DNA of 64,000 bases from Bolinopsis microptera (taxonomy: Eukaryota; Ctenophora; Tentaculata; Lobata; Bolinopsidae): NCBI RefSeq assembly GCF_026151205.1, contig NC_087076.1:8470902-8534901 (forward strand). Direction: 5' to 3'. Positions 10,725 through 55,398 of this stretch are shown here, piece after piece. Under the pieces are notes generated by a model. It saw only the letters and a list, made by a program, of their open reading frames with translations, searched no databases and was not told the DNA's origin. The position numbers were made by a program, and so were the translations under genes. Positions within the stretch are counted from its first letter, which is position 1. Each line of letters starts with the position of its first letter.

Positions 10725-12342
10725 CGTGCTTGTATACCGCCCATATGGTTAGGTACTAACCATGTCAGAGCGGTTTCTAAAGGGCCAGGGTGAGGTGAAA
10801 ATATCCAGCAACAAACAACTACATCATCTCAAAAACAAATCTATTCAGAAAATATAACTTTAATTATATCATTTAGTAATCATAGGAAGTTTTATTGATA
10901 TATACCACACTACGATTAACAATATACCACCAAAAATCACTTAAATAGATTCATATAGGAATCATAGGAATATTTATTGATATATTACACACTAGTAATA
11001 GGAAACAGGACGAGATAGAAGTAAGGTCACTTAAAATTAATCATTGTTCAATAAATTAATTTTGATTGACAGATGATAAATTTTAAATTTTACCTGGAAT
11101 GCAAGGATGAGGAAGAATATGAGAAGAGAGCAGAGGAAATAGACCAGGAAATCCCAAGTAAACATGGACAGCCAGTACAACCGAACTGTTAACCCAGAAA
11201 TCTCTGTCAGATGCTTGCCACTTACCTCGTCCTCTCTTCTACTGGGCCCTAGTTAGAAAGTTAGTTAAAGGTGACTAAATCAACATGATAACGTCTGTAA
11301 TTATCAAACAAAAAATGCGCTTGGAAGTGCTTGATATAGACTGAATTTGAAGATCTGTGCACTAGACGTGGTTATATAAAATGGTTGTTTCCCAACTATC
11401 ATGCACATCAGCTACTGACACATCAGACATGCAACCCCCCCCCCCACCCCCCCCTCCCCCATAGTAGACGCTGCACCTACCTGAGTAAAGGCTGCGTACA
11501 TAAACGCTCCTGCAAATATGTAAACCATGATTAACATGACTTTCTGAGGATCATCAGATATAATATCAACTTTATTCTCCTCCTCATCTTGTAATTCTGG
11601 AAGAGGTTCATTTGAAGCTGTCACTGTTATATCTATGTCGTTCATTTCCAGGATCAAGTTTGTGATGGCTGATTGGAAAGCAGGAATCAGATGAAAGCCT
11701 TCGTGGCTTACCCAACCGGATATAAACATCCCCATTAGCATCAGTGATATTGTCATCAGAAGACAGTTTAACTAGGTTTTCGCTATCACCGTTATAGCCA
11801 GTTTGTATCTGTGGATACAGATTCTGTTAAATATTTTATAGTAATCAATTAATAATGTGCAATTGCGATAGTTGGTGTTAAATGTATCAAAGCTCCTGGC
11901 ATTGATTCTCCTTAGACAATGGGAAGGCAACTCAAACAACTGGTACTTCTTGTCAAGAGAACTAGTGCTTCTAGTAAGTAACAAGAAACATTTGTTCAAC
12001 ACAAGATATAACAACAATTATTATAATATTATCAATTCGATATAATCGATATCTTGAAAGTATATTTATATACTTTTAAGATAAGTTTATAAACTTTATT
12101 ACTAAATTGTACTTTAAAAATATTCGACCATATTCTAATGTACACGTAATAAAATTTACCTCAGAGGCAGAGAAAGGGGCAAGTTCTTTTCGAGGTCCTT
12201 CTCACTTGTTTGACCCTGTTGGCATTTAGTTTTCTCCGTGGTACTTCAATGTTCGAAACACAGGAACAATGCATGAGTGAGTATCTGGAAGTTATTTTAT
12301 TTTCATTTCGTTTTCTATAAAATTCGATTTCTTTACGATAGA

Positions 12343-13343
12343 AATGACACGTATTATAACTCGTATTATATGTGTATTGTTACGATACAAAATAACACGT
12401 ATTATAACACGTATTAAATGTGTATTGTTACGATACAAATGACACGTACAGGAGGTGCCGGGATTGTCAATTTTGAGCTATCCTGGTCCGGTCCCGGTCC
12501 CAGTCAAAATTATGCTGATTTATTTATATTTATGATCCCGGTCCCGGTCCCGGTCCCGGTTAATTCGGGATTCTTGGTCCCGGTCCCGGGTCCCGGTCAA
12601 TCACTCAAATTTGCCGGGATTTTGACCGGGATCTTTTACATAATTTCATTCACTGTGATTTTAAGTTTTTCCTTTCATTCATTGTGATTTCATCTTTAAA
12701 CATCCTCTGAGCCAAATACAACAATGTTTAAAATTGCTAAACAAGTTTGAGTAATAAATTATGATCATGAATTAACCAGTTATCGACCGGAATTCCCGGT
12801 ACCGGGAATCCCGGTACAGGGATTGGCAATTTTGAGCTATCCCGGTCCCGGTCCCGGTCCCGGTCAAGTCACATTTTTCATCCCGGTCCCGGTCCCGGTC
12901 CCGGTAAATTGATAATATCAGGGGATCTCAGTCCCGGTCCCGGTCCCGGTCCCGGTCAAGTCACATTTTGTATCCCGGTCCCGGTCCCGGTCCCGGTCAG
13001 GCCTGAAATCATGTCCCGGTCACCTCCTGGACACGTATTATAACACGTATTATATGTGTATTGTTACGATACAAATGACACGTATTATAACACGTATTAT
13101 ATGTGTATTGTTACGATACAAATGACACGTATTATAACTCGTATTATATGTGTATTGTTACGATACAAATGACACGTATTATAACACGTATTATATGTGT
13201 ATTGCTACGATACAGATGACACGTATTATAACACGTATTATATGTGTATTGTTACGATACAAATGACACGTATTATAACACGTATTATATGTGTATTGCT
13301 ACGATACAGATGACACGTATTATAACACGTATTATATGTGTAT
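12343..13343. repeat. 47-bp satellite in ABCA intron 2, interrupted by a MITE (left arm)
   Basis: A unit of about 47 bp (core ACACGTATTATAACACGTAT followed by a TTGTTACGATACAAATG-type tail) recurs about nine times, at 12343-12448 and 13030-13343. The right arm has the same array at about 53,887-54,893, so it predates the duplication. Confidence 0.85.
12449..13029. mobile_element. hAT-type MITE filled with CCGGTC hexamers (left arm)
   Basis: Termini CAGGAGGTGCCGGGA and TCCCGGTCACCTCCTG are inverted repeats. The flanks are both GACACGTA (12441-12448 and 13030-13037), an 8-bp duplication, though the host satellite also contains that word. The interior is runs of CCGGTC hexamers separated by short unique pieces. 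Non-coding. Mirrored at 54,209-54,789. Confidence 0.65.
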
Positions 13344-15452
13344 TGTGTATATTACCACCCTGATGTCAGCTCCTGTTTCAGAGCCCTCTTCGTTATCAGA
13401 TCCTCTTCACGATATTTGGGGTGAAAAGAAAATGATCGCAATATCTCCTGCCAACAATAATCTAGGTTTTAAAGTCTAGGTTCTCAGACTCTTCTAGTCT
13501 CTCTTTTCTAGAACTGATATCAAAATGAAGAATGAAGAAGTTGATGCTTTATTTCTTATTGCTACAAATAGAATTGGTCGATTATTCACCTAAGCTGTAT
13601 AGTGTATAATGTATACTGTATTGTGTATACTGTATAGGGTATAATTTATACTGTATAGTCTATACTGTATAGTGTACAATGTATATTATATCATAATTTG
13701 TATGTAATAATTTCAACAATATATTATAACTTTCAGTCGATGATTTGTCGAGTAGAATGTTGACCATGGATACTTTCAAGTTCTCAGATGTTACAAGGAA
13801 AGTACTAGATTCAGAAAATATTACCGACGAAATCAAGGAATTTAGGGACGGGTATGTACATGATACAGAATACTGCTGGTCAATTGAAAGATATGAGCTG
13901 TTTTTTGTACAATTTAAAAGATACTGACCGTAATTAGTTTTTGCTGTATTTCCATCGGCTTTAATCTTTTAATTACATCAATCTAACGCCAATAAAGCGT
14001 CCATCCATTTACATGGTTATAAAATGGTTTGAATAACACAATTTCCAACGTAAGTGTAAAGATGATTCAATTTTCTTTTCTACGATCGATCAAGATGAGT
14101 AATCGTAATCAGAAACTTTCACAGCAATTCGAGGTATCTAGTTGTATTCCCAACCAATGACAAATTTAAAGAATACTTGAAAACGAACTCAACAGAGTTC
14201 AAAGCAGCTATTGTTTTTGAAGGGGATGAGAAGAATATATCCTACTCCATCCGGTACCACAGAGCGGATGCTGGTGAGTTTTTAAATTTGTCTATTTCAG
14301 AAGAGGTTTATCTTTAGAGCTTTAGGATTCAAATTTCAAATGATGAGAAAATACACTAATTATATTTTAATTTAGCAGATTATCTGCTTAATATAACTTT
14401 CTGAAATAGTAATATAACCATCTTAATTAAACTCCTAGACAATATAGACATTGACGGATACTGGAACACAGAAAGATTGTTTCTTCGTAAGCCTGATCAG
14501 AAAGAAATTACGTCCTCGTAAGTTTGAAAAAACTCCATTTTGTGGCACCTCAGAAGTGGGGCTAGACAGTAACATTACGTATTATTTTAAGACTCGAGAC
14601 TTATTTTTCGTCGAAATGACTCGTCCGTTTCGTCCGCATATGATGCGGATTTCTCGTTACATTTTACAACGGTCATAATATACTCAATTTCGTTATTCAG
14701 TGTTAATACAAATATTGTAAATAATCTTACACTTTTTTAATCTAGACCATACGACAATACGGGGTTCGCTGCTTTGCAGAGATTAATTGACTCCTGCATT
14801 CTTCTGAGAGAAGGAGTGGAGTACAATCCAGCAATCGCTATAAGGGTATTGTTATTTGTTAGGGTACCTACCTTTTGTTATCATCACCATTTATCTTGTC
14901 TTTCAACTAGTAACGAATTCGGATTTTAGTTCAATTAGATATCTCAACCTTCGTCCTACTGATCTTCCATTTAAATGATGCCGATTTTTAACACAACAGA
15001 AAATTAACATTTGAATAACACAACCAGAGTGTACCTACACCGGCAGAGAAGACAGATACCTTTGTGGATATGATGTTCCCAATGTTAATCCCTGTCTCAA
15101 TGCTCATCGGGGCATTCCTCATTACTTCCTCTATTGCAGCAGACATTGTCGAGGTAATCACCCGGCAGCTGGTTTTAAATTATACCAGTTTCATTCTTAG
15201 TTGTTTGCGTTATATAATCATCAGTTAGTTAGTTTCTATTATAAATAGACGAATACATTTTGTTATTATTACACGCGTCGACAGTAAAAACATGCTCCAA
15301 AACTATATAATTTTCAAGATGTGTAAACATTTTAAGTTTTTCTCCGCTCCACTTGGTGATCGTTTTTCATGAAAAGCTCAGAGCTAAACAGATCTTTATC
15401 TTAACATACTTGTAGGGTTGTTAGGTGCAATTGTGACAATTAATGCAATCAG

Positions 15453-15596
15453 GGGTCGTTCACATATTACGTAATCAATATTTTAGCAATTCTTACCCCC
15501 TCCCCAGTCCCCCTCCGTAATCAACCGTAATCAAGACCCAACCCCCCCTCCTGACAGCAATATTGCGTAATCATGGCCATAATATGTGAACGACCC
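15453..15596. mobile_element. Short foldback MITE with TCAG duplication (left arm)
   Basis: Ends GGGTCGTTCACATATTACG and CATAATATGTGAACGACCC are inverted repeats, flanked on both sides by TCAG. 144 bp, non-coding. The same insertion is in the right arm at 51,642-51,785. Confidence 0.75.
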
Positions 15597-16233
15597 TCAG
15601 TGGCAAAGTGACACTTTTTATCATCGGAAACATTTTAAACAGAACATACATGATCACAGAATAGAAAGAATATTTAAACAGTAATGTAAATTTCTATTGT
15701 TTGTCGAAACTTCTCAAAGAGTGTAAATATTCGAGCTATTTATATGGGATACCAAAACACAGAGATGTGGTACAGTTGTACCTATAAAATATGGTCCCGT
15801 AAAAGCAAGATGAACAATCAAAATATGATTAAATATAGCACAGCGTTCTACTTCTCTCAAACACCAATTAACAACTTTCAAACTCAGGGGCTGTTAAATA
15901 TATTGAATAATGTGTTAATAACACATCAAAACACAGCACAATAGCAGTGCCTGAAGCTGCAATGCACATAAACACGAAATGCATGCAGCTGACTTTAAAA
16001 AGTGAACAATAATCAGACCATGAATTGTACTTGTAGTCTATAATGTCATTCAATTTAATCGTGATTATGTTCACAAGATCAAGACATATGGAAGCAAGGA
16101 AATTTAATTTGGTTCAGTTCATAAAAAATAAGTCTTAGTTCACAATCCTTTCAGTTCAAATTCATCAAAAGTTACCAGCTCGGCTGTTTCCTAAGTTCAT
16201 TTTATCCAGTTTAGGTTTTCATGTCTAATATCT

Positions 16234-17202
16234 TCACAGCTTTGTCTCAGTTTCATTGCTCGTATTCGCTATCACCCCAGAAGGACTGCTTGCTCTATTT
16301 GGGAGGATCCTAACAATCCACAACCTCATTTCCCTCATCCTCAAAACATAGAGCAGTGGGTTTAGAGAAGCGTTTAGGACCGTACAGAAGATTCCGCTTA
16401 GAAGCCAGCTGTAGGAGGACATAAAATAGTTGTCGTATATTGAATATGAGTATATCTTGGCCGTCACCATGGTGTAGGTGAGAAGAAAGCTGTCAACGAA
16501 AGTGAAGCAATTGCAACAGAGGAAGAGGGCTGTAAAATAAGTAATGGTGATGGAAGCGTGTTGATTTCTCCTTTGGGACACATTGTTTGCGACAGGTTCC
16601 TTCCGGAGCATAACAATGGAGACAAGAAACGTCAGAAACACGATGATTGGAGGAATTCCCAAACAAGCGCTGTAGTTGAACATGTAGCAGATTACCAACG
16701 ATGGAGATTCTGGTGCTTCACTAGTTGACAGAGTGATGGTGCAAGTAATCTGGGTAAAAAGTGTAGTGTTCCAAATACAGTGGTATATGAGGTAGAGAGC
16801 AATGGACACAAGAACTGCTCTTTTGTTGACTTTGTAGAAAGGGTACTTTATGACAATCACTCGTGATAACGACAGTGTCATAACCACGAATATGGAAATT
16901 TGTTGAAGCAAGGAGAGGATGGAATGCCAAATCGAGCAGATAATTTTGTTGTCGAGTAAACCAGGATTTCTGTTTTTCAGCAAACTAAAAGCAACTGGAA
17001 GGTGGATGACGGAGGAACCTATATCGATAGAGCAGGCAACTATGTAAAGAAGAGTTGAAAGATTTCGTTTCTTTGTGTGGAGGAAATATTTCAAAGCTAG
17101 ACAGTTTCCCGGTAGTCCGATCACTAAGCAGACCAAGAGCCCGAACGCTATCAACCCATCATAAATTCTGCCTTGAGTTTCCAGAATGAGAGTATTATTC
17201 AT
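16234..17202 (-). CDS. Rhodopsin-type seven-helix receptor, copy 1 (left arm only)
   Basis: Intronless frame of 322 aa from the ATG matching the other copies' second methionine (11 more codons lie upstream in frame). Helix 1 has GLPGN and helix 2 CSIDIGSS. A conserved cysteine precedes helix 3, which ends LSRVIVIKYPF; the arginine of the usual DRY motif is kept but its acidic and tyrosine neighbours are not. Helix 4 has a tryptophan, helix 5 paired prolines, and helix 7 NASLNPLLYVLRM in place of NPxxY. An N-terminal NNT glycosylation site is present. Ligand unknown. It lies antisense in the eighth intron of the ABCA 5' half, next to copy 2; a MITE lies between them. Confidence 0.85.
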   Translation of the reverse strand: MNNTLILETQGRIYDGLIAFGLLVCLVIGLPGNCLALKYFLHTKKRNLSTLLYIVACSIDIGSSVIHLPVAFSLLKNRNPGLLDNKIICSIWHSILSLLQQISIFVVMTLSLSRVIVIKYPFYKVNKRAVLVSIALYLIYHCIWNTTLFTQITCTITLSTSEAPESPSLVICYMFNYSACLGIPPIIVFLTFLVSIVMLRKEPVANNVSQRRNQHASITITYFTALFLCCNCFTFVDSFLLTYTMVTAKIYSYSIYDNYFMSSYSWLLSGIFCTVLNASLNPLLYVLRMREMRLWIVRILPNRASSPSGVIANTSNETETKL

Positions 17203-17498
17203 CCTCAAACTTAGAATCAGCGTAGATTGAATCAATATAAATTATAAGGGCAGTTTCTCGGACTACTTTAAAAATATTTGAAGCTGCGGCTCACTGGCCC
17301 ACGTTTACTTTTATTTATATATAAGTTAAGACACCGGTAGTAAAACAATTAATGAGTAAACAACTCATAAGCCGAGGCACGGGTGCGCTAAGAGACTGCG
17401 TCACCATGTGATTAAGATCTGTACTGAACATGTTGAGCACGGAAAACGTTTGCAGGTGATCTAATATTAAATTAAACGTTGAAACATCATGTGTAATA

Positions 17499-18078
17499 CA
17501 GGGACGTAGCCAGGATTTTTCTTTGAGGGGGGCTGTCGGCGAGCGAAGCGAGCCGACGCGTCCAATCAAGCTGTGGCAGGGGTCTGGGGGCGCAGCCCCC
17601 AGCGGGGTCCAGGGGCGGAGCCCCTTGGCGGGGGCTAGGGGGGCACAGCCCCCCGGAAATTTTTTGTGAAACAGGGTGTTTTAGACGACATTTGGCATTA
17701 AAGAAATTTGTAGGACAGCAATAAACTGGGATTGAAAAGAATCAAGTACTCACGTAAATTTGGTAACTTCACAACAGCAATCTGCATTCTCCAATCAGAA
17801 TTTACGACTTACTCAGGCCTCATCGTCTTAAGATTTTTACATTTCCTACGGTCTAGGGGACACTATTGACTATAATTATAGAAGTCTTCTAGAATGTTTG
17901 CTTGGATTTAATGACATATATTTACTAATCCACAGTTCAAATCTTTGACTGACTGCAGTCATAAACACAGCCCAGTTACCAGGCGACCATGGGGACTAGG
18001 GGGCTTATCTTTTTTCTGGGGTTCGATTTTTTCCGGGGGGGCTGCCGCCCCCCTAGCCCCCCCCTGGCTACGTGCCTG
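17499..18078. mobile_element. hAT-type MITE, 580 bp
   Basis: Ends CAGGGACGTAGCCAGG and CCTGGCTACGTGCCTG are inverted repeats. A perfect 8-bp duplication GTGTAATA flanks it (17491-17498 and 18079-18086). GC-rich interior, no transposase. It lies between the two GPCR copies, so it landed after, or at, their duplication; the right arm has no counterpart. Confidence 0.9.
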
Positions 18079-18367
18079 GTGTAATATCACTTATCGTTGC
18101 TCTATCAGTTAACTTTAAGCTGTTTTTAGAGAACGTAGAGAAAATTGTCTACAGTTATTAAATTACTGTCTTTAATGGTTTCCAGGAAGTCAGAGGCTCT
18201 AAAAACTGGCGATAAACTGGGCTTTCATAATTGTCAAATTTATGTCTAGTAATAGTTTTGGCGTATTTGGGGTCCACAATCCTTTCAGTTCCAGTTCATC
18301 AAAAGTTACCAGCTCGGCTGTTTCCTAAGTTCATTTTATCCAGTTTAGGGTGTCATGGCTATTATCT

Positions 18368-19345
18368 TTACAGATCGGTCTCAGTTTCATTGCTCGTATT
18401 CGCTATCACCCCAGAGGCACTGCTTGCTCTATTTGGGAGGATCCCAACAATCCACAACCTCATTTCCCTCATCCTCAAAACATAGAGCAGTGGGTTTAGA
18501 GAAGCGTTTAGGACCGTACAGAAGATTTCACTCAGAAGCCAGCTGTAGAAGTACATAAAATAGTTGTCGTATATTGGACCCGGGTATATCTTGGCCGTCA
18601 CTATGGTGTAGGTGAGGAGACAGCAGTTGATGAAAGTAAAGCAATTGCAGCAGAGGAAGAGGGCTGTAAAGTAAGTAATGGTGATGGAAGCGTGTTGATT
18701 TCTCCTTTGGGACACATTGTTTGCGACAGGTTCCTTACGGAGCATAGCAATCGAGACAAGAAACGTCAGAAACACGATGGTTGGAGGAATTCCCAAACAA
18801 GCGGTGTAGTTAAGTGTATAGAAGATTAAGAACGATGAAGATTTTGGTACTTCATTAGGTGACAGTCGAGTGGTGGTGCAAGTAATCTGGGTAAAAAGTG
18901 TAGTGTTCCAAATACAGTGGTATATGAGGTAGAGAGCAATGGACACAAGAACTGCTCTTTTGTTGACTTTGTAGAAAGGGTACTTTATGACAATCACTCG
19001 TGATAACGACAGTGTCATAACCACGAATATGGACATTTGTTGAAGCAAGGAGAGGATGGAATGCCAAATCGAGCAGATAATTTTGTTGTCGAGTAAACCA
19101 GGATTTCGGTTTTTCAGCAAACTAAAAGCAATTGGAAGGTGGATGACGGAGGAACCTATATCGATAGAGCAGGCAACTATGTAAAGAAGAGTTGAAAGAT
19201 TTCGTTTCTTTGTGTGGAGGAAATATTTCAAAGCTAGACAGTTTCCCGGTAGTCCGATCACTAAGCAGACCAAGAGCCCGAACGCTATCAATCCATCATA
19301 AATTCTGTACTGAGTTTCCAGAAACAAAGTTTCATTCATTCTCAA
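18368..19345 (-). CDS. Rhodopsin-type seven-helix receptor, copy 2 (left arm)
   Basis: Intronless, 325 aa, beginning MRMNET. Same architecture as copy 1: GLPGN in helix 1, LSRVIVIKYPF after helix 3, NASLNPLLYVLRM in helix 7. It differs from copy 1 mainly in the second extracellular loop, helix 6-7 loop and C-terminal tail, as expected for ligand-facing divergence. Nearly identical to the right-arm receptor except at the C-terminus. Upstream flanks shared with copy 1 show a tandem duplication of about 2 kb. Confidence 0.87.
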   Translation of the reverse strand: MRMNETLFLETQYRIYDGLIAFGLLVCLVIGLPGNCLALKYFLHTKKRNLSTLLYIVACSIDIGSSVIHLPIAFSLLKNRNPGLLDNKIICSIWHSILSLLQQMSIFVVMTLSLSRVIVIKYPFYKVNKRAVLVSIALYLIYHCIWNTTLFTQITCTTTRLSPNEVPKSSSFLIFYTLNYTACLGIPPTIVFLTFLVSIAMLRKEPVANNVSQRRNQHASITITYFTALFLCCNCFTFINCCLLTYTIVTAKIYPGPIYDNYFMYFYSWLLSEIFCTVLNASLNPLLYVLRMREMRLWIVGILPNRASSASGVIANTSNETETDL

Positions 19346-20069
19346 ACTTAGAATCAGTGTAGGGCTTAGGGCAGTTTGTCGGACTACTTTATCACAAACG
19401 TATGTTAAGACCTCTAAGTACTAAGTAAGCCGATAAATATTTAAAGCTGCGGCTCACTGGCCCACGTTTACTTTTATTTATATATAAGTTAAGACACCGG
19501 TAATAAAATAATTAATGAGGAAACAACTCATGAGCCGAGGCACGGGTGCGCTAAGAGACTGCGTCGCCACGTGGTTAAGATCTGTAATGAACATGTTGAG
19601 CACGGAAAACGTTTGCAGGTGATCTAATATCAAATAAAACGTTGGAACATCATTGGTCGAAGTTGTTAGAATTAGAGAACGCAACGTTGAGAAAAATGCT
19701 ATGCTGCAAAATAAATAACATGGATAAATGTGAATCACTTACATTTTACCTTGCGGTAAATATGGGTCAACCTGTATTCCATAATCCACACTTCAATCCA
19801 CCCCCAGGAAAAGTTTTCTAAAATGAGGGAAATTCAGCGAATGATGGGTCTGACTGACACCATAATGTGGCTGAGTTGGATTATCCAGAGGTCTCTCATT
19901 ATAATCGCTTGTTCCGCCCTGAACGCCACAGTTCTGATGGTAAACTTACTTTCTACTTTATTTAATTAATTGGATAATTAGCTAATATAAACGAGTATCA
20001 TGCCTTTGATTTTAGAATGCCCGGTCTTGTTATTCAAGCTAAACTGTGTACCATACTGTACCATATTAA

Positions 20070-20797
20070 GGGGGCAGGGGGGGGTCTTCATGGAAATTTT
20101 CTCTAAATCGACTTTTTAGTTGTTTCTGATAGAGGGGAGTAATATCTATCAGATGCTTTTGATCCCGTGGAAAAATATCGTTCCTAGCCGAAATTATTGC
20201 CGGTCATAGGTCAGCGCGTGTGTGTAATTGTATTGCGCGAGCGATTTTTGATCGCGTGCCCTGAAAATCGAGTCTAAAAATCTATCTTCTCCTACATTTT
20301 TTGAGCAATCACCCTGAAACTTTCAGGATATGTTCTAGGGATCATTTAGAAAAGATGAGCCGGGCAGAATTTTGAGATAGGCCTTTAAACATTTTTTATT
20401 TGATTTTGAAAATCTTGGACCTCGAAAAATCATCAAAAAACGAGGTCCAAGATTTTCAAAATAGAATAAAAAAATTTCAAAGGCCTATCTCAAAATTCTG
20501 CCCGGCTCATCTCTTCTAAATGATCCCTAAAACATATCCTGAAAGTTTCAGGGCGATTGCTCAAAAAATGTAGGAGAAGATAGATTTTTAGACTCGATTT
20601 TCAGGGCACGCGATCAAAAATCGCTCGCGCAATACAATTACACACACGCGCTGACCTATGACCGGCAATAATTTCGGCTAGGAACGATATTTTTCCACGG
20701 GATCAAAAGCATCTGATAGATATTACTCCCCTCTACCAGAAACAACTAAAAAGTCGATTTTGAGAAAATTTCCATGAAGACCCCCCCCCCTGCCCCC
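20070..20797. mobile_element. TTAA foldback element (piggyBac-like MITE), left arm only
   Basis: 728 bp, a near-perfect palindrome over its whole length with a short centre near 20,430. Ends GGGGGCAGGGGGGGTC and its complement. TTAA flanks both sides (20066-20069 and 20798-20801). The right arm has a single TTAA at 49,283-49,286 in otherwise matching sequence, which is the empty site. TTAA duplication is the piggyBac hallmark; no transposase is present, so the family is inferred. It sits in ABCA intron 9. Confidence 0.9.
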
Positions 20798-22202
20798 TTA
20801 AACCATATTGAACCATATCGTACCATATTGTACCATATTGAACCATATTGTACCATTTTGTACCCTCAGTTTTGCGGATACACGCCACTGAGTGACGAAA
20901 CAGTGGTTTTTGTGTTTCTCCTGCTTTACTACACAGCTCATACCTTCTTCGTCTTCTTTGTAACGTGAGCTAATATTTCATTATTATTATGAAGCTTTTT
21001 TGACATAGTTTGAGTGAGATTTAAATTAAATGTTTTCTGTCTTATCATAATGTTTAATCCTAGCAAAGGTTATGAAGGTTGACGGTTAAGTGTACCTTTT
21101 GCTTGAGTAAGTTTTAAAAGCTATTTCACTTTGAAAGGCCTGCCTCAGATGTATTCATATTCGAAAATTGCAGACTATAAAATCATACCAAAATCCTAAT
21201 GCAATCTGCAAGACATGTTTTTAATTTTTCAGGTCACTACAACGGAACATGAAATCAGCTCCGGCAGTAATGATGTTCCTAACTTTTCTACAGTACCTTC
21301 CTTATATTGTCCTCGAGATCCCTCATCTCTCCAGGTTACAGATCAATGTTTTGTATAATTTGGATTTTTCATCGAGTACTTTTTTGAATCCTTTTTTGTG
21401 AAATGTCAGAAAAATTATGAATTATTATATATATGCTTTTAGTATCCTATTATTTTAGGAGTGTAAAGATGATTGTGTCTTTACTTCCGCTTTCGGGTTC
21501 TTCCATCGGATTGGTAACAATCGCCGAGTGGGAAAAGATTGGGGTAAGTAATTTATTGTACAGAATATTTACTGATGAATGATGAATGGTGATCTATTTA
21601 TTTCGTGCCACCACCTTCAGAGTTCAGACTTTCTTTCCTTTTTTGTTTATGGTACAAAAATATTACATCCACTTCTGCTGCAATGTAAAATTTAATGCTT
21701 AATTTTCAACAGCTCGGAGCAAAGTGGAACAACTTAGGGGACAGTCTGAGCGTTCTTACAGCATTTTCAATATCTGACGTGATGCTTATGCTCTTAGTCG
21801 ACATTTTCATCTACGGATTCCTTACTTGGTAAGCTCCATATTTTCTGGAGAGGGTAAATGATAACCAGATTACCGTTATTGTTTCAGATGTTTATTGTTT
21901 AACCCACTTAGTAATATAATTTAAATGATTCTTCATAAGATAAGCTTTGTGAAATAATGTAAGCTGTTTTATTCCGAGATTCTATGTTTCCCGCCCTTTA
22001 GGCGATTTATAAATTCCGCACGATGTTTGTCTTTTTATTTTCGACCCTCTGCCTTGAATTGTACAATTTAACAGAGAATCTGTTGAAACATTTGTTTAAT
22101 CTTTTACATTAGTTGACAATTAGCATGTACATTAAGATGTGTAATTCGACACATTTTAATTGTAGCGAAGCCCGTTCACTGCAATATCACATGTTCAGAC
22201 TG

Positions 22203-25200
22203 GAGGCGATGTTTTCGCTCAATTTGTAACGTATAGGTAACGTGCCCCCATTTCTTGCCCCCAAGTTGTAACGTCTGCCCCCATCATGATCTGACCTTGC
22301 CAATCTAATTAAGTTTCCTTGGTGAAACGATTTCTTGCTCGGTCGGATATACGTAATCGAATTATGCATACCAAAGACTGTAGTCCACAGGTCCACAGGT
22401 TAGTGCAAACAACAATACGAACCCGCGAACCGTGAAATAAACCATCTAGAAACCATTTATTCTGTTATAATGTAATACTGTTAGTGGAATAGTAGCAAGG
22501 ACGATCTAAACCGCAAAACAAACCATCGAGAAACCATATTGGGGGTTTTTTTGATCGAATGTAACGTAATAAATATCTCTGCCCCCATTTACTAAGATGT
22601 AATATAAGGTGGTTATCAGTGGTTCTATCAGTACAAGTATTCTGTAATACTGTTAGTAGTTACTTGAGTAGTGTGAACAACAATATAAATTATGAAATAA
22701 ACCGTTTGGAAACCATTTTAGGGTTTTTTTGATCGAATGTAACGTCATAAATATCTCTGCCCCCATTTACTAAGATGTAATATAAGGTGGTTATCAGTGG
22801 TTCTATCAGTACAAGTATTCTGTAATACTGTTAGTAGTTACTGGAGTAGTGTGAACAACAATATAAACTATCAAATAAACCGTTTGGAAACCATTTTAGG
22901 GTTTTTTTGATCGAATGTAACGTAATAAATATCTCTGCCCCCATTTACTAAGATGTAATATAAGGTGGTTATCAGTGGTTCTATCAGTACAAGTATTCTG
23001 TAATACTGTTAGTAGTTACTGGAGTAGTGTGAACAACAATATAAATTATGAAATAAACCGTTTGGAAACCATTTTAGGGTTTTTTTGATCGAATGTAACG
23101 TAATTAATATCTCTGCCCCCATTTACTAAGATGTAATATAAGGTGGTTATCAGTGGTTCTATCAGTACAAGTATTCTGTAATACTGTTAGTAGTTACTGG
23201 AGTAGTGTGAACAACAATATAAACTATCAAATAAACCGTTTGGAAACCATTTTAGGGTTTTTTTGATCGAATGTAACGTAATTAATATCTCTGCCCCCAT
23301 TTACTAAGATGTAATATAAGGTGGTTATCAGTGGTTCTATCAGTACAAGTATTCTGTAATACTGTTAGTAGTTACTGGAGTAGTGTGAACAACAATATAA
23401 ATTATGAAATAAACCGTTTGGAAACCATTTTAGGGTTTTTTTGATCGAATTTAACGTAATTAATATCTCTGCCCCCATTTACTAAGATGTAATATAAGGT
23501 GGTTATCAGTGGTTCTATCAGTACAAGTATTCTGTAATACTGTTAGTAGTTACTGGAGTAGTGTGAACAACAATATAAACTATCAAATAAACCGTTTGGA
23601 AACCATTTTAGGGTTTTTTGATCGAATGTAACGTAATTAATATCTCTGCCCCCATTTACTAAGATGTAATATAAGGTGGTTATCAGTGGTTCTATCAGTA
23701 CAAGTATTCTGTAATACTGTTAGTAGTTACTGGAGTAGTGTGAACAACAATATAACTTATGAAATAAACCGTTTGGAAACCATTTTAGGGTTTTTTTGAT
23801 CGAATGTAATGTAATTAATATCTCTGCCCCCATTTACTAAGATGTAATATAAGGTGGTTATCAGTGGTTCTATCAGTACAAGTATTCTGTAATACTGTTA
23901 GTAGTTACTGGAGTAGTGTGAACAACAATATAAACTATCAAATAAACCGTTTGGAAACCATTTTAGGGTTTTTTGATCGAATTTAACGTAATTAATATCT
24001 CTGCCCCCATTTACTAAGATGTAATATAAGGTGGTTATCAGTGGTTCTATCAGTACAAGTATTCTGTAATACTGTTAGTAGTTACTGGAGTAGTGTGAAC
24101 AACAATATAAACTGTCAAATAAACCGTTTGGAAACCATTTTAGGGTTTTTTGATCGAATGTAACGTAATTAATATCTCTGCCCCCATTTACTAAGATGTA
24201 ATATAAGGTGGTTATCAGTGGTTCTATCAGTACAAGTATTCTGTAATACTGTTAGTAGTTACTGGAGTAGTGTGAACAACAATATAAATTATGAAATAAA
24301 CCGTTTGGAAACCATTTTAGGGTTTTTTTGATCGAATGTAACGTAATTAATATCTCTGCCCCCATTTACTAAGATGTAATATAAGGTGGCTATCAGTGGT
24401 TCTATCAGTACAAGTATTCTGTAATACTGTTAGTAGTTACTACTTACTGGAATAGTGTGAACAAAAAAATAAACTATCAAATATATCAAAACTATCCAAA
24501 CCCTAAAATGGTTTCCAAATGGTTTATTTGATAGTTTATATTGTTGTTCACACTACTATACAGTAACTACTAACAGTATTACAGAATACTTGCACTGATA
24601 AAACCATTGAAAACCACCTAACATTACGTCTTAGTAAATGGGGGCAGAGATATTATTTACGTTACATTCGATCAAAAAAACCCTAAAATGGTTTCCAAAC
24701 GGTTTATTTCATAATTTATATTGTTGTTCACACTACTCCAGTAACTACTAACAGTATTACAGAATGCTTGTACTGATAGAACCACTGATAACCACCTTAT
24801 ATTACATCTTAGTAAATGGGGCAGAGATATTAATTACGTTACATTCGATCAAAAAAACCCTAAAATGGTTTCCAAACGGTTTATTTCATAATTTATATTG
24901 TTGTTCACACTACTCCAGTAACTACTAACAGTATTACAGAATACTTACATACTGATAGAACCACTGATAACCACCTTATATTACATCTTAGTAAATGGGG
25001 GCAGAGATATTAATTACGTTACATTCGATCAAAAAAACCCTAAAATGGTTTCCAAACGGTTTATTTCATAATTTATATTGTTGTTCACACTACTCCAGTA
25101 ACTACTAACAGTATTACAGAATACTTGTACTGATAGAACCACTGATAACCACCTTATATTACATCTTAGTAAATGGGGGCAGAGATATTTATTACGTTAC

Positions 25201-26777
25201 ATTCGATCAAAAAAACCCTAAAATGGTTTCCAAACGGTTTATTTCATAATTTATATTGTTGTTCACACTACTCCAGTAACTACTAACAGTATTACAGAAT
25301 ACTTGTACTGATAGAACCACTGATAACCACCTTATATTACATCTTAGTAAATGGGGGCAGAGATATTTATTACGTTACATTCGATCAAAAAAACCCTAAA
25401 ATGGTTTCCAAACGGTTTATTTCATAATTTATATTGTTGTTCACACTACTCCAGTAACTACTAACAGTATTACAGAATACTTGTACTGATAGAACCACTG
25501 ATAACCACCTTATATTACATCTTAGTAAATGGGGGCAGAGATATTAATTACGTTACATTCGATCAAAAAACCCTAAAATGGTTTCCAAATGATATATTTG
25601 ATAGCTTATATTGTTGTTCACACTACTCCAGTAACTACTAACAGTAATATTACAGAATACTTGCACTGATAAAACCGCTGAAAACCACCCTAATTTTCAT
25701 CTGTGTTAATTTAATTGTTGTATTAATATCTCTTCTTTATTGTCCTCCTGTTTGATAGCATGTTCAAAGGAGTGGTGACAGTCTTTGAGGAGTGTACACA
25801 TTACAAATTAATCTTGTACCAGTTAATAACTGTGTAGTGTGTTGATATGTAGTAGATTGAATATAATAGATAGACTATAATAGATTAGTACTTTTAAATA
25901 GATTAAAACTACCGAAGAAGTGATATTCTGAAGATTAAAGCAAGATCTTTTCTTGGGTTTTAAGAGGATTTCAGATTTGTGCAGGGTAATTTGAACATGA
26001 TTCCACGTTTTGGAAAATATAGTAACTAAAATGCACGCCCACACACCACACCCACTTCAGCCACGGGGTCAATATATATATATATATATGATATATATAT
26101 TGATAATAATATCAGATGTGATCAATTTCACGATCAAAATCAACTATTCACGAACACTTGTTCGGCGAACAACTGTTCGCGAACAGTGGTCGTGCTATCT
26201 GGATACTGCCTCAAGTTCGACTCAATCCAACACATAGATTTTGCTCCAAATATTGTATATTTCTGTATTGGTACCGTATGGCGTATGAGATATCATGTTG
26301 ATATATCTATAATATTAAAACCGTCTTATTCAGTGTTATAATAGTGATATCTTATTCCATGAGGGCAGAAATAATAAATACGTTACGGTGAAATAAACCA
26401 TAAAATAATCTTTAGAACTACTCCATTAACAACTAACAGTACTTCAGAACAAATACACTAACTAAACCACCTTATATTGAATTATGTACATAAAATTACC
26501 GCGATTTCCTTTGTCAAAATTTGGAGAATTGGATGGCGGATGCACTATACTTCAATGCTCCGAACACATTCAGGTATCATGTAAACAGTAAAGATATAAT
26601 CATCTGTGAATTAATTAAATTAGGGCGTGAAGCTGTGGCCTGGTAAGATATTGGACTAGTGCGTGAACTATTCTAAGATATAATCGAAATGTTTTAGGGA
26701 ACGCGCATGCTCAACCTATATATGAAGGCAGATTCAGGATGGGGGCAACGTTACAACTCAGTGAAAACAATCCTCTG
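22203..26777. mobile_element. 4.6-kb foldback transposon carrying an inverted satellite array (hAT-like)
   Basis: The right arm lacks exactly this segment: its sequence at 47,889-47,896 has one CAGTCTGA, while the left arm has TCAGACTG on both sides (22195-22202 and 26778-26785). The termini are imperfect inverted repeats: left end GAGGCGATGTTTTCGCTCA, right end in complement CAGAGGATTGTTTTCACTGA, both followed by TTGTAACGT and GCCCCCAT. An 8-bp duplication and a CAGAGG-type tip suit a hAT relative. The interior is satellite on both sides plus about 1 kb of AT-rich sequence; no transposase frame. Confidence 0.85.
22440..25700. repeat. 178-bp satellite, two blocks in opposite orientation
   Basis: About 11-12 units run forward to about 24,470, then about 7 units run in reverse complement to about 25,700. 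Each has GATCGAATGTAACGTAAT, CTGCCCCCATTTACTAAGA and AATAAACCGTTTGGAAACC. In the forward block two variants alternate (ATTATGAAATAAACC and ACTATCAAATAAACC), giving a roughly 356-bp higher-order unit; the reverse block is mostly the first variant. Degenerate units lie at 22,400-22,550 and 26,340-26,480. The unit's GTAACG and GCCCCCAT words also occur at the element termini. Confidence 0.92.
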
Positions 26778-26785
26778 TCAGACTG

Positions 26786-27600
26786 CCAGTCAAAAGCAAT
26801 CTGTCAAGTTTTGTAACGCGCGAATCATTGTAAGATGATGTGTACCGCGCTAAAATGCATATTATATGCGCGCAGCGCACGCAGTGCATGATATAATATG
26901 CAATGGCTGGCCGGCCGGAGTATTTACCTTATAGTCTGATCTGTTAAAAAAAGATAAACTCGTATTATTCATTACATGATTATGTGCACGAATATTATCA
27001 GCATGATAAGAAATGATTGCGTTAATCGTCTGATTATCGCCTCAAATACGTGGACGTCCTTCAGTAAAGTGGAGTAAAGTAGAATTAAAGAAAAGTGGAG
27101 TGAAAAGTAGAGAAAAGTCGATATAAGATAAACTTTTCACTATATTATAGTCCTGTCACTATAAAGTGCGTTTTGCACGCTATATAGTGACAAATATCAG
27201 CTGTCATTATAAAGTGCTTGTCACTATATAGTCCTGTCACTATATAGTGCGATTACCAAACGTGCACCGTCCGATAACCGCGGGATAATCGTCTTATTGC
27301 TAAATTTCTGCAACATTAAAATCCAAGAATTTTTCATTGTGATTAATTAATTGAATGTTTAGATTGTTTATCAATGCGACGTGATCTGATAATTTGATCC
27401 GATGCATATACCATATATACAGTGTCTTTTTTTTGAATTCTTTAATAAAACAACAGACATCTCACAAAATATATTGATTCTACGAATTTAATATTGGTAT
27501 TGTTATTCGATAAATCGTATAATCGCATTTTCAATGTAATATGTTAGTGTCATTCACACGAACAACATAAATATTCTTTTCACAGATAAACTCGGTGTTA
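26786..27600. repeat. Non-coding sequence with dispersed hairpins between the satellite element and the NERD gene
   Basis: A GTCACTATATAGT-type palindromic word recurs at about 27,126-27,255 (right-arm partner about 47,410-47,540). About 260 bases at 27,255-27,515 are absent from the right arm. No ABCA ATPase exon was found here. Confidence 0.6.
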
Positions 27601-30043
27601 TCAATCATACCGTATAACTCTGACAGAACCTCCAAGTACAACCAACATATCATTTAATGGTTTAAATTCTGACTTAAAGTAACTGCGGCTTGACAGGTCA
27701 TAATCTGAACTATTATATATTATAACAACACAATATACCCTTGCCCTTGAAATCTGCCGGTAAAGAATAGGTAGGTCCCTAGAATGAGCAACATCGTGTA
27801 ACACAATAACTGCTGGGTATTCTAATGAATAACAACTATCAAAATCACACCACTCTATTTTATTATTATCAAATACACTACATCGTTCTTCTATTACTTC
27901 TTGATCTTGTTTACTTGCAGCATATACTATACCTATTTTAATATTGTCTGTTTTACATAATTTATCTAGTTCTTCACTCAAGATACCAAACAAACTGCTC
28001 TCATAACTTGTCTTCTCAATAACATGGACTACAATCTGTTGTCCGTGAATATAGTGCCCTTGTTTTATTATTGGAATATTACCAACATCTATAAGTTCTC
28101 TTCCTTGCTGTAGAAGTTGTAGAACAATTTGCTCTCTGATCTTAGATAGAATGTCAGTAATGTCAGAAGTATTTCTTAAGTTCAGAGATAGAGTTACAAT
28201 GGTTTTAGGGGGCAAGTTTGTTAAGGATGAGTAAAATCGTTTTCTGTAACTATAAGCTGATAATGTGAAGAAGTATGACTGAGCTAAATCACAAGTTATC
28301 ACACAGTTAGTTAGTGCTCTGACAATCTGCAGTAAATCGAGCTCTGGAAACCTATGTCGGTTAACTGACGGACTCATCATACCCTGCAAGTCATCAATAA
28401 ATACGTGTATGTTGCTTTCCATCAGTTTAGTCACTGTATTATGTGTGAAACGTAACAAATGTGTGATCCTAACTATTACCACCCTGATTTCACTTTCTAA
28501 TACCCTCTGTACTGTGTACTCTGGATTGTTCGTGTAATCAACTATCATTTGGTTACTGATATCAGCTTTATGTAAAGCATCTTGATAATGTTTACATGAA
28601 ATGTCATGCTTTGAGAAAATGAACAACACAGCTCTGTTATCCACATTTGATTTGATCACTTTTATGATTTTGGCCAACAAGATGATAGTTTTCCCTGAAC
28701 CTGCTGGTCCATTAATTACCAGCAGATTCTGATCTCTGTTGAAAGCATCATGTTGTTCCACAGTCAAGTATTCTATACCGAGCATGTCTGTAAAAATGTT
28801 AATGCCACTGTCAATATTTGCAGACTTTATATCAGTTGCTTTTATCACATTAGGATTTGGTAGACGGTTTTTGCTGAGAAATGTAATATTTCCTTTCTTC
28901 AACTCGTCGTCAATGTCCATTATAGCTTTTCCCAAGCAACACTTCAGTTCATCACATAGGTTTTTATCAGTACAGTAGATAGCTACTAATACTTGCTTCA
29001 TTTCCTTGTGTTTAGCGAGAAAAGCTTCAGTTTGAACAAAGCTAGATATCGGACCTAACACGTCATGTTGTTTCCACCAGCTTGAGAAATCTAGAAAGTC
29101 CTCTTTGCACAATATCTGCTTATTGGTCTGTTCATCCATGTTCTGAAATAGATCACGACTTGTGCTAGGAAACGCGGACAGGCATATTATTGAGCATTGA
29201 TCTGCTTCCAAACCAACGAAAACTTGATGTACAAGACCATTTATCAATGATTTTGTCTTTTCAAGTTGTTCGAGTGAGCCTTTAAGTGCTCCTGTCAATT
29301 CCTTTCTCTGCTCATCTGTTAATTCACTATCTTCATCAATTGGGACATTCTTCACTTCAATAATGACAACATAGTTTTTCCCGATAAGAACAAAGTCACA
29401 TTCTGTTTTATCTGCAGCCTTACCTTTACATCGCTTGCAGTTTTTTCTGTCATGACTTTTATCACAAATTCGGTACTGATGATGGGTGTACTTGAAGCTA
29501 TGAAGAACCACACACCTTTCCTCTGTCAATCTCTCCAATGCTCTGTATGTCAGCACCTCAGCCTCATAGTTTGCTTGTTTACATCTCTCGTCATCAAATT
29601 TACTGCTGGATGCTCCCTCTTCGTCGATGTAAACATCAATGTAGGTCTGTTTGGGGGCAGGTGGTAACATAATCGGAGATTGGTCTTTAAACTCGCAATA
29701 CTTTTTACAGATTTCTCTGCCTTTGTTTCTATACTCTTCCAGCGTATTCATTTCTGTAAAAGTTGAATGAAATCAAACATTGTAAGTTGTAGAACCCTAC
29801 AATTATAATGGAGAGTCTAGTACAGTGGCTACCCGACCGGAGATAAATGTATCAATAGTATCAATTCTATAAGAACTGCTAGATTTTATAGCATAAATCA
29901 TAATAGACCTTGTTAATGTTTTACTACAAAAAGTCATGAATAATGAATATAGATATAAGTATGTACCGACCGCAAGTTGTTTTTTCTCTATCTGTACCCG
30001 ATTGATCTCCTTTTTGTTTCCCACTCTGCTTTCCTTTCCCCAT
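27601..30043 (-). CDS. NERD-nuclease / superfamily-1 helicase-like protein, left-arm copy
   Basis: Two exons, 30043-29998 (MGKGKQSGKQKGDQS) and 29753-27601, join in phase to about 732 aa. In the 716-residue main exon: a NERD-type PD-(D/E)xK nuclease at about 60-180 (E65, D119, E132, K134 in IIEVKN) with an inserted C-x8-C-x2-C-x9-C cluster (96-118) that may bind zinc; Walker A GPAGSGKT 348-355; Walker B FIDD 451-454; LNLRNT 523-528; SLEYPAVIVLHD 642-653; LYRQISRAR 663-671, matching SF1 motifs IV to VI. Such NERD-helicase fusions are known in bacteria; a nucleic-acid processing or defence role is inference. The basic first exon suggests a nuclear or RNA-binding tail. Convergent with the ABCA half gene; 11 residues differ from the right-arm copy. 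Confidence 0.85.
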
Positions 30044-30589
30044 CTTGATGTTATATCGGTTTGTAACGAGTTTTGAGGACTAACTTTTCTGAAAAATGTT
30101 TACCAATTTAGCAAAATTTAATGTGATCACAAGGGGATCACAACTTGTACACGGCAGCTTTTTACCAGAGACTATATTGATATTTACAGCTATTTGGCTA
30201 ATATTATAAACCTCTGATATAAGATATTGAATCTTTTTAAAACTCACACAATCTATCCTTAATCCGTATCGTTCCTACCTTACTTTAAAAAGTGAACAGT
30301 TCGTCTCAGATGTAGACAAAGTGAGGAGGAGGAGGAGGGTAAAATCAGGCGAATATCACAGAAAAAGAGAAAATAAGAAGTATGATAGTAACAGTTAAGT
30401 AACTAAAATAGGCATCCAGTTCGAACAGAGTCTGCTGAGAAACAAACTGCAGATCAGCACAATAAGAATTACGTAAGAGAGAACGGAGTTTGCGAAGCTA
30501 ATGTAAGGATGTAGATTGTAGGACCCTAATAACAGAATAGGATAATGTGCGTCATAGTAGCAGGGGTGTAGGAATGATTTTCTTCATGG

Positions 30590-30608
30590 GTGGGGGGGGG
30601 GGGGGGGC
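30590..30608. repeat. Homopolymer G tract (left arm)
   Basis: A long G run matches the run of about 27-30 C in the right arm (about 44,314-44,340). Different lengths are expected from slippage or sequencing error. Confidence 0.85.
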
Positions 30609-30994
30609 CAAATTCTAAATATTTTTTTCGAGGGTAAGGACAAAAGGAAATTGCAGCATGTGCGGTATCGCGATTTTTCACGATGCCAACAAGTCGCGAT
30701 TTTTCAGATCCTGGCCTCACGACAAATTGCGATTTTTTCAGTTCTCCGCGTCAAATTGTGCATTTTCCTTTAAATCTGAGGACTAAATTCGCGTATTTTC
30801 CTTCAAATCTGTGGGCCAAATATCACGTTTTCTATAATTAGTATATGAAACCAATCAGTATCACATCCACAACCTTCCGAATGTAGGAACGGACTTCAAA
30901 AAACCGAAAAATATATTTTCGGCTCAGAATGATCAGGGTAGTATGAAACATGAACAAAAGTGGTTTCCAGAAAAACTTTGAAAAATTTTGACTT

Positions 30995-31445
30995 AGATTT
31001 ACCATCTTTGTACCAGTAATTAACAAAACCTGGTAGTATTGCTCTAAGACTCATTTTTTGTTTTACAAATAGTGTTTCTATATGGGATTTGGCAGCAAAA
31101 CCCCAGACGAGGGAGCAGTAATTAAGGTGAGACTGCACAAAGCTGTGATATATTTGTAAACGTGCTTCCAGAGGCAAATATTTTTAAGTTTGTACATGAC
31201 TCCAATGTATCTGGCCATTTTCATTTTCATGGCAGAAATATGTTGCAACCAGTTCAGTTTGTTATCTATTATAACTCCTAAGAAACGGGCTTCTGTTTTT
31301 CTTTCGATTGTGACACCAGAAATTACTACATCGCGATAAATGAGGTTTCTTTGCCGAGAAAAGATCATATAATTCGTTTTTTAAAGATTTAGAGCTAATC
31401 CGTTGTTATCTACCCATTTAACTAAGACATCGCTAAGAATTTTGA
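30995..31445 (-). mobile_element. LINE reverse-transcriptase fragment
   Basis: Minus-strand translation gives the C-terminal part of a non-LTR reverse transcriptase: KTNYMIFS, then FLGVIIDNKLNW...HI, then YHSFVQSHLNYCSLVWG and QKMSLRAI. A frameshift separates the two frames near 31,170, and a stop lies just upstream of KTNY. It abuts the inner edge of the left arm: sequence beyond 30,994 is shared with the right arm, this part is not. Confidence 0.8.
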
Positions 31446-43809: not shown

Positions 43810-44886
43810 TCCAAATGTTTTAAGAATCATCTAGAGAGGTGATAACCGTTGAGAAATCGCTTTTAACACGAAAAGCTAACGAGATTCCGTTTCGTCTCTG
43901 ACTAAATGACTCGGACCGAAAATTTTCTAAGTCAAAATTTTTCAAAGTTTTTCTGGAAACCACTTTTGTTCATGTTTCATACTACCCTGATCATTCTGAG
44001 CCGAAAATATATTTTTTGGTTTTTTGAAGTCCGTTCCTACATTCGGAAGGTTGTGGATGTGATACTGATTGGTTTCATATACTAATTATAGAAAACGTGA
44101 TATTTGGCCCACAGATTTGAAGGAAAATACGCGAATTTAGTCCTCAGATTTAAAGGAAAATGCACAATTTGACGCGGAGAACTGAAAAAATCGCAATTTG
44201 TCGTGAGGCCAGGACCTGAAAAATCGCGACTTGTCGGCATCGTGAAAAATCGCGATACCGCACATGCTGCAATTTCCTTTTGTCCTTACCCTCGAAAAAA
44301 TATTTAGAATTTGGCCCCCCCCCCCCCCCCCCCCCCCCCCATGAAGAAAATCATTCCTACACCCCTGCTACTATGACGCACATTATCCTATTCTGTTATT
44401 AGGGTCATACAATCTACATCCTTACATTAGCTTCGCAAACTCCGTTCTCTCTTACGTAATTCTTATTGTGCTGATCTGCAGTTTGTTTCTCAGCAGACTC
44501 TGTTCGAACTGGATGCCTATTTTATATTTTAGTTACTTAACTGTTACAATCATACTTCTTATTTTCTCTTTTCTGTGATATTCGCCTGATTTTACCCTCC
44601 TCCTCCTCCTCACTTTGTCTACATCTGAGACGAACTGTTCACTTTTTAAAGTAATGTAGGAACGATACGGATTAAGGATAGATTGTGTGAGTTTTTTTAA
44701 AAGATTCAATATCTTATATCAGAGGTTTATGATATTAGCCAAATAGCTGTAAATATCAATATAGTCTCTGGTAAAAAGCTGCCGTGTACAATTCAAGTTG
44801 TGATCACATTAAATTTTGCTAAATTGGTAAACATTTTTCAGAAAAGTTAGTCCTCAAAACTCGTTACAAACCGATATAACATCAAG

Positions 44887-47329: not shown

Positions 47330-48252
47330 TAACACCGAGTTTTTTGTGAAAAGAATATTTATGTTGTTCGTGTGAATGACACTAACATATTACATTGAAA
47401 ATGCGATTATACGATTAGTGACAGGACACTATATAGTGACAGGACTATATAGTGACAAGCACTTTATAATGACAGCTGATATTTGTCACTATATAGCGTG
47501 CAAAACGCACTTTATAGTGACAGGACTATATAGTGAAAAGTTTATCTTATATCGACTTTTCTCTACTTTTCACTCCACTTTTCTTTAATTCTACTTTACT
47601 CCACTTTACTGAAGGACGTCCACGTATTTGAGGCGATAATCAGACGATTAACACAATCATTTCTTATCATGCTGATAATAATCGTGCACATAATCATGTA
47701 ATGAATAATAAAAATATCTTTTTTTAACAGATCAGACTATAAGGTAAATACTCCGGCCGGCCAGCCATTGCATATTATATCATGCACTGCGCGCGTGCAT
47801 GCATGCATATAATATGCATTTTAGCGCGGTACACATCATCTTACAATGATTCGCGCGTTACAAAACTTGACAGATTGCTTTTGACTGGCAGTCTGAACAT
47901 GTGATATTGCAGTGAACGGGCTTCGCTACAATTAAAATGTGTCGAATTACACATCTTAATGTACATGCTAATTGTCAACTAATGTAAAAGATTAAACACA
48001 GATTCTCTGTTAAATTGTACAATTCAAGGCAGAGGGTCGAAAATAAAAAGGCAAACATCGTGCGGAATTTATAAATCGCCTAAAGGGCGGGAAACATAGA
48101 ATCTCGGAATAAAACAGCTTACATTACTTCACAAAGCTTATCTTATGAAGAATCATTTAAATTATATTACTAAGTGGGTTAAACAATAAACATCTGAAAC
48201 AATAACGGTAATCTGGTTATCATTTACCCTCTCCAGAAAATATGGAGCTTAC

Positions 48253-55321: not shown

Positions 55322-55398
55322 TGTCTAAGGAGAATCAATGCCAGGAGCTTTGATACATTTAACACCACTATCGCAATTGCACATTATTAATTGATTAC

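Follow-up and report, generated by a model that had tools for sequence, protein, structure and literature searches.

A non-coding foldback-type transposon with mirror-image arrays in Bolinopsis microptera, and a motif shared by its tips and array units

The window element and its empty counterpart

The window analysed here is a stretch of 64,000 nucleotides from the ctenophore Bolinopsis microptera. Its genes, which include a GPCR gene and a scavenger-receptor/trypsin gene, are animal-like, and an Rfam scan of the window returned nothing at gathering scores. The window contains a large inverted duplication (11830–30997 against 43926–55409), in which the matching pieces are 96.4–98.9% identical. 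The left arm carries a transposon of 4575 bp at 22203–26777, flanked on both sides by the 8-bp duplication TCAGACTG. The features of the element and of its target site are as follows.

22195–22202, unstranded: left target site duplication, TCAGACTG
22203–26777, plus strand: non-autonomous foldback-type transposon of family A, lineage A1, 4575 bp
22203–22216, plus strand: left tip, GAGGCGATGTTTTC
22225–22231, plus strand: first motif word of the left end, TGTAACG, replaced by TGTATCG in lineage A2 and by TGTGGCG in family B
22267–22273, plus strand: second complete motif word of the left end, again TGTAACG, with a TGCCCCCAT after it
22530–24483, plus strand: forward array of the 178-bp unit, about 10.9 copies
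24484–24497, unstranded: 14-bp switch point separating the array halves
24498–25689, minus strand: reversed array of the same 178-bp unit, about 6.7 copies
25711–26777, plus strand: right domain of 1067 bp, with one decayed reversed unit (it scores 50, and the best shuffle 34)
26749–26755, minus strand: right motif word TGTAACG, reversed
26763–26777, minus strand: right tip, CAGAGGATTGTTTTC, with one T more than the family version
26778–26785, unstranded: right target site duplication, TCAGACTG
47889–47896, minus strand: empty target site, with no insertion, in the opposite arm of the duplication

The initial annotation had described a segment bounded by an 8-bp duplication and imperfect inverted termini, with a 178-bp satellite running forward in its left half and reversed in its right half, and both descriptions agree with the positions above. 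The left tip GAGGCGATGTTTTC and the right tip, CAGAGGATTGTTTTC in the window copy and CAGAGGATGTTTTC in the copies on contigs C1 and C7, in the array-less relatives L073 and L075 and in others, form imperfect inverted repeats. Units match at 96–97% in both the forward and the reversed array. The longest stop-to-stop frame of the element is 103 codons, and the window element is a non-coding foldback-type transposon.

An empty site in the right arm had also been proposed, and it was recovered: when the left-arm flanks are joined through one TCAGACTG, the product is the right-arm sequence around 47889–47896. The shared flanks of the two arms are 98.1% identical over 1871 aligned columns (15 mismatches and 21 gap positions). 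The window copy would have inserted into one arm of the inverted duplication while the other arm stayed empty, and since the right arm has the 8-bp site just once and unaltered, a site that was never occupied is favoured. Two other histories could leave the same picture, namely a precise excision from the right arm, or two haplotypes of one locus that were misjoined as arms in the assembly. The divergence of the arms, about 1 to 4%, is comparable to the heterozygosity of some invertebrates, and a second insertion (20070–20801) is likewise confined to one arm. Against misjoined haplotypes, the arms are separated by roughly 13 kb for which the window contains no inverted counterpart, their outer flanks are unlike each other, and the GPCR gene is present in two copies in one arm and one copy in the other. 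Furthermore, the 53 bp adjoining the insertion have a full-length match in the genome at these two places only, and excision seldom restores exactly one 8-bp copy. We therefore regard these histories, taken together, as unlikely.

Related elements and the origin of the arrays

The genome (264.65 Mb in 232 contigs) was searched for the ends and the units. The outer left end, from 22203 onward, is nearly complete at four further places, and all four also contain the 178-bp unit; five additional places hold shorter or weaker pieces of it. These four copies and the window copy constitute family A. They lie on five contigs and are named by contig, as C5 (the window copy), C9, C2, C1 and C7. Tandem 178-bp arrays were found at these five places, each inside a family A element with an 8-bp duplication: TCAGACTG, GATCAGTT, TGTCTAAT, AAACCAAC and AAATTCAG, read allowing for a right tip shortened by 6 bp in C9 and lengthened by one base in C2. 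The array halves are opposed in four of the five copies, while C2 has no reversed half; with partial units counted, the forward array has about 1 to 11 units and the reversed one 0 to 7. C5, C9 and the pair C1/C7 each have their own sequence at the switch point.

A second family with a 167-bp unit was reached through the left tip. The tip GAGGCGATGTTTTC has 20 exact matches in the genome, against one for the reversed control pattern. Six of 16 left-tip matches have a different inner sequence, and one of them opens into a 167-bp array. The right-tip search for this family B gave 17 matches at up to two mismatches, against four for the control pattern. Three full elements of 10–12.5 kb were identified (C3:17802004–17812138, C2:9720232–9731022 and C9:16369108–16381602), and all three have perfect 8-bp duplications, GTGCGAAC, TGATGATA and TTCTACTG. 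The array direction switches near 17806651 in the C3 element and near 9729840 in the C2 element; in the first 4.4 kb of the C9 element, which is the part that was read, all units run forward. Family B shares the plan of family A.

Other members of this clan of related elements have the tips and no array. The right tip CAGAGGRTGTTTTC has 27 matches in the genome, against five for the control. Seven other exact left-tip matches were read over about 650–690 bp, of which L083, L085, L086, L088 and L089 resemble clan members; L084 and L087 show no further clan mark over that length and may be chance matches. Perfect 8-bp duplications flank 11 of the 17 clan members judged at both ends, namely the five family A copies, the three family B copies and three small array-less elements, L075 (233 bp, CATAACTC), L074 (195 bp, CAGACTAC) and L085 (168 bp, GTTAAATC). 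In array-less L073 (754 bp) the duplication matches at 7 of 8 positions, and L083, L082 and L090, judged at both ends, have no duplication. The duplication match of L086 and L077 is uninformative because both sit in a minisatellite. From the above, long inverted arms of tandem repeats, the mark of a foldback element, are present in four of the five family A copies and in the two family B copies with array positions, and target site duplications and dispersed copies accompany them.

Of 61 matches to the 178-bp unit, with all six candidates scored and repeat counts to be read as lower bounds, 60 lie within the five elements, and the remaining one, of 50 bp, adjoins another right tip on C5. For the 167-bp unit, 73 matches were listed, one of them in a short C3 relative (13318001–13318289), and four single partial units lie elsewhere, on C8, C5, C1 and C7, the last near a right-tip match; seven of eight candidates were scored in this search, and the known C9 array is absent from its results. 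The initial annotation had asked whether the arrays are always bounded by the termini and by 8-bp duplications, and a satellite occurring mostly outside the termini would have counted against it; this did not happen, as all eight arrays found lie within both ends and an 8-bp duplication. The further suggestion that the element seeds satellite arrays across the genome was not borne out: for either unit, no array of at least two units outside the elements is among the matches listed. The same result disfavours an ordinary genomic satellite and is not proof against it, since the search that omitted the known C9 array could also miss a free array of the 167-bp unit.

Some array-less relatives hold traces of the units. 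One decayed 178-bp unit is present in L086, L077 and L073 (scores of 69, 70 and 77 against shuffle maxima of 35, 33 and 31), and about 1.5 decayed family B units in L088 and L089 (99 and 92 against 28 and 27). L074 and L075 were scored in the same way and have kept no unit, and L083 is marginal (36 against 29). Scores in the low 30s, as in L085 and in the left end of the window element, are uninformative on their own, since a stretch of the window taken as control reached 31, with 30 as the best of its shuffles. The units of families A and B are partly homologous over 55 bp (score of 39, where two rounds of 500 shuffles peaked at 29 and 34). The unit had also been said to share words with the subterminal sequence, and eight 8-mers are indeed common to the outer 100 bp of both ends and the unit, all running in the same inward direction, a number reached by 2 of 1000 unit shuffles. 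In lineage A2, eight 8-mers are shared between the ends and the unit (1 of 1000 shuffles), and in family B eleven (0 of 1000).

The initial annotation derived the satellite from subterminal repeats of the element. What stands of this is that the array belongs to the transposon and that, judging from the one to 1.5 decayed units in array-less relatives, the arrays probably grew from the element's own internal sequence. The simplest course would be that one internal unit multiplied separately in families A and B. The reverse order, in which an independent satellite came first and a transposon captured it and was wrapped around it, can be argued from the tandem repeats that many mobile elements contain (PMC8101967) and from the absence of free arrays being unproven while one known 167-bp array escaped the search. 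It has to be set against arrays of at least two units that were found only inside elements, the single decayed units in relatives that have no array, and the partial homology of the A and B units, and we consider it very improbable.

The history of the arrays was followed in a tree of 48 full family A units, in which 4 of 38 inner branches are well supported. Units of lineage A1 (C5 and C9) are parted from those of lineage A2 (C1, C2 and C7), except for the A1 unit C5_2315R, which falls on the A2 side. Because the units are not strictly clustered by copy, some tandem units probably predate the separation of the copies. The tree pairs the last forward and the last reversed units of C1 and C7, with support (92/83 and 92/80) below the tree's own star; by difference count only the reversed pair of last units is closest, and the array ends of C1 and C7 were not retained as orthologues. 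In C1, two of five mirror unit pairs are identical (808F with 1831R, and 986F with 1655R), compared with 3 to 10 differences in the other comparisons of these units, which suggests that sequence was copied between the arms. Mirrored identical units were also sought in C5 and C7, with no such pattern; the array halves are not perfectly mirrored in all copies, the identity being confined to these two of five pairs in C1.

A motif that differs between lineages and agrees between tips and arrays

The unit and both ends of the element have in common the word TGTNNCG and a TGCCCCCAT, oriented inward alike. The word differs by lineage, and it is TGTAACG in C5 and C9, TGTATCG in C1, C2 and C7, and TGTGGCG in family B. 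Over the left end, array and right end of the five family A copies, all 64 of the 64 words counted fit their lineage (C5, 17; C9, 9; C2, 12; C1, 14; C7, 12), as do 28 of 28 in the part of the C9 family B copy that was read, and all three family B right ends carry TGTGGCG. Some units have no intact TGTNNCG word. The comparison rests on two contrasts, A1 with A2 and A with B.

Lineages A1 and A2 show seven fixed differences in the left outer 118 bp. Three of these, at positions 27, 38 and 69, are the identical A-to-T change, which affects base 5 in two words and in a near-word. At the right end, where C5, C9 and L075 were set against C1 and C7, the same A-to-T is the sole fixed difference in alignment columns 1 to 91; the outermost columns are not comparable for C9, because its tip is eroded, and C2 was excluded from the count as lacking most of the right domain, though it still has TGTATCG there. 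Taken one by one, the chance of the motif pattern is about 5 in a million on the left and 0.4% on the right, figures that serve as a guide only because the word was picked after the fact, from its sharing by tip and unit.

Six array-less relatives were checked for the word. L075 and L085 have an identical word at both ends, while L073 is mixed, its left end reading TGTAACG and its right end TGTATCG. The two directions also disagree in L086 (TGTTACG and TGTAACG), and in L077 and L074 the word occurs in one direction only.

Affiliation, proposed mechanism and meaning

The superfamily may be P-like or hAT-like. Duplications of hAT elements are 8 bp long, with an insertion bias of nTnnnnAn, and hAT tips carry an A as second and a G as fifth base. 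In the clan, T is at position 2 in 3 of 11 duplications and A at position 7 in 5 of 11, so the bias is absent; the right tip CAGAGG fits both of these bases, and the left tip GAGGCG fits at position 2 only. The length of the duplications and the right tip agree with the hAT relationship suggested earlier, and the insertion bias and position 5 of the left tip do not. A THAP-type site has the consensus TxxGGGCA. TGGGGGCA, the reverse of TGCCCCCA, resembles it, which may point to P, whose catalytic domain is PF21787; a literature search listed no paper containing the consensus string. GCCCCCAT occurs at both ends and in the majority of units, and the right end of the C2 copy reads GCCCCCAA. Inverted arms made of tandem repeats are known in TU of the sea urchin, which has 8-bp duplications, and in Foldback of Drosophila; by description, the TU unit of about 15 bp differs in length from the 178 and 167 bp of the clan.

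P elements make 8-bp duplications (PMC7776569), and the clan's duplications fit both P and hAT. Some Merlin families resemble the clan in their internal tandem repeats, 8–9 bp duplications and imperfect termini; Merlin tips begin with GG (PMC8101967), while those of the clan begin with GA and CA. Closest in form, likened by description, is Tetris of Drosophila virilis, which has long inverted arms with internal tandem repeats of about 220 bp, duplications of 8–10 bp, no transposase found and a small relative sharing its tips, and in which 37 bp of the unit are common to the flanking domain at about 80% (PMC4079207). Its TIR-220 repeats form free arrays (39 repeat-only contigs), unlike the clan, for which none was found in a search that missed the C9 array, and the text consulted on Tetris does not describe a tip motif that changes by lineage throughout the array (PMC4079207). 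That account provides a precedent for foldback elements giving birth to satellites, and it also names the foldbacks of sea urchin and D. melanogaster (PMC4079207). Galileo, a foldback-like element of the P superfamily, has long, internally repetitive inverted arms as here, and its THAP domain was shown to have binding sites both close to the end and within the tandem repeats (PMC3688188). Its transposase is known (PMC3688188), while none was found in the clan sequence read, and the inverted arms of the clan differ in being mostly array, with units changing together with the tips. For Foldback and Phantom, a role of extra binding sites is called untested in the same source (PMC3688188).

The architecture is already known from Foldback, Galileo and Tetris. 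What is new here, as read from the aligned copies, is a TGTNNCG site that appears to have changed in step in tips and arrays, by lineage. A literature search of titles and the beginnings of abstracts, mostly among papers outside subscription, listed no paper in which the motif of the tips and the units of an internal array change jointly. Since the tandem repeats of Galileo were shown to hold extra transposase-binding sites, we read the arrays as ladders of putative transposase-binding sites that would have changed with the transposase. It is fairly probable, in our judgement, that the element is a non-autonomous cut-and-paste foldback transposon whose arrays are extra transposase-binding sites changing with the tips.

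The process may be pictured as follows. A transposase made elsewhere would recognise pairs of TGTNNCG and TGCCCCCAT near both ends, excise the element and reinsert it through an 8-bp staggered cut, of which the duplication is the visible mark. An internal stretch with one motif pair would have been multiplied in tandem and duplicated as its mirror image, which would have turned each arm into an array of candidate extra binding sites oriented as the nearest tip. The arrays would travel with the element, unequal exchange would alter their length, and some copying between arms, as suggested by the C1 mirror pairs, may occur. Tips and units would have changed motif together most simply because the same transposase reads both. 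No transposase or autonomous copy was found in the clan sequence read; a transposase gene may lie in the 8.7-kb right part of the family B element C2:9720232–9731022 (C2:9720232–9728953) or in C9:16369108–16381602 beyond its first 4.4 kb. Two candidates were rejected. L076 has long frames that by eye resemble a LINE-type retroelement inserted in an old copy, and a 239-codon frame in the family A C2 copy lies mostly in an insertion, with a weak DUF6451 match below the Pfam cut-off, which is not a known transposase domain.

The same foldback transposon could also carry its arrays passively: slippage and unequal exchange would have produced them, they would contribute nothing to movement, and the motif would have spread between tip and unit through gene conversion or because tip sequence was duplicated into the array again and again. 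The wide variation in copy number, the C2 copy that has no reversed array and the arm-to-arm copying that seems to occur all agree with passive arrays. Gene conversion, however, would have to work in tracts about 8 bp long, and to do so at several distinct sites of each element, because tips and units differ around the shared word, and at the right end nothing except the motif's A-to-T is fixed within the columns compared. Passive arrays thus seem rather unlikely to us, and the joint change of the motif in tips and repeats suggests that the arrays help the element move.

Why foldback arms contain tandem repeats is an unsettled question. The two families, and the two lineages within one of them, form a natural experiment in which the motif differs between lineages and agrees between tips and array, and the binding-site idea is therefore testable. 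The clan also grades from members with one unit to members with dozens, and offers useful material on the birth of satellites. The broader proposal, that mirror-image arrays in foldback transposons are selected ladders of binding sites evolving in step with the transposase, is put forward tentatively, at somewhat less than even confidence. If it is true, a shift in transposase specificity would carry tips and satellite units along with it, and the birth of a satellite would be a product of selection for transposition, not of slippage alone.

Inverted duplication and its gene content

The window contains a large inverted duplication (11830-30997 versus 43926-55409), in which the identity of the pieces ranges from 96.4 to 98.9%. 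The following features are located in its two arms:

12333-13346 and 53892-54904: tandem repeats of 47-48 bp, mirrored, one set per arm
16234-17241 and 18368-19420: rhodopsin-like GPCR frame, two copies in the left arm
49932-50984: rhodopsin-like GPCR frame, single copy in the right arm (Pfam 7tm_1 match below the cut-off)
27601-29772 and 45158-47329: open frame of 723 codons, uninterrupted in both arms

The mirrored tandem repeats adjoin CCCGGT-rich repeats. In the right arm, the 723-codon frame shows similarity to the NERD nuclease-related domain and has weak matches to helicase and NTPase families.

A second insertion limited to one arm

Another insertion (20066-20801) is found in one arm only; the inserted element, about 730 bp long and palindromic, has TTAA on both flanks, and a single TTAA is present in the right arm. 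A relative is located at 59077-59781 of the window.

Other repeats associated with the transposon and its relatives

The flanks of L077 and L086, two array-less members of the transposon's clan that are both located on contig C7, look like one and the same minisatellite, which also takes up the rest of L077. Within the right domain of the transposon itself, a stretch of about 70 bp (26138-26211) has about 40 further matches on many contigs, and is probably a small nested repeat.
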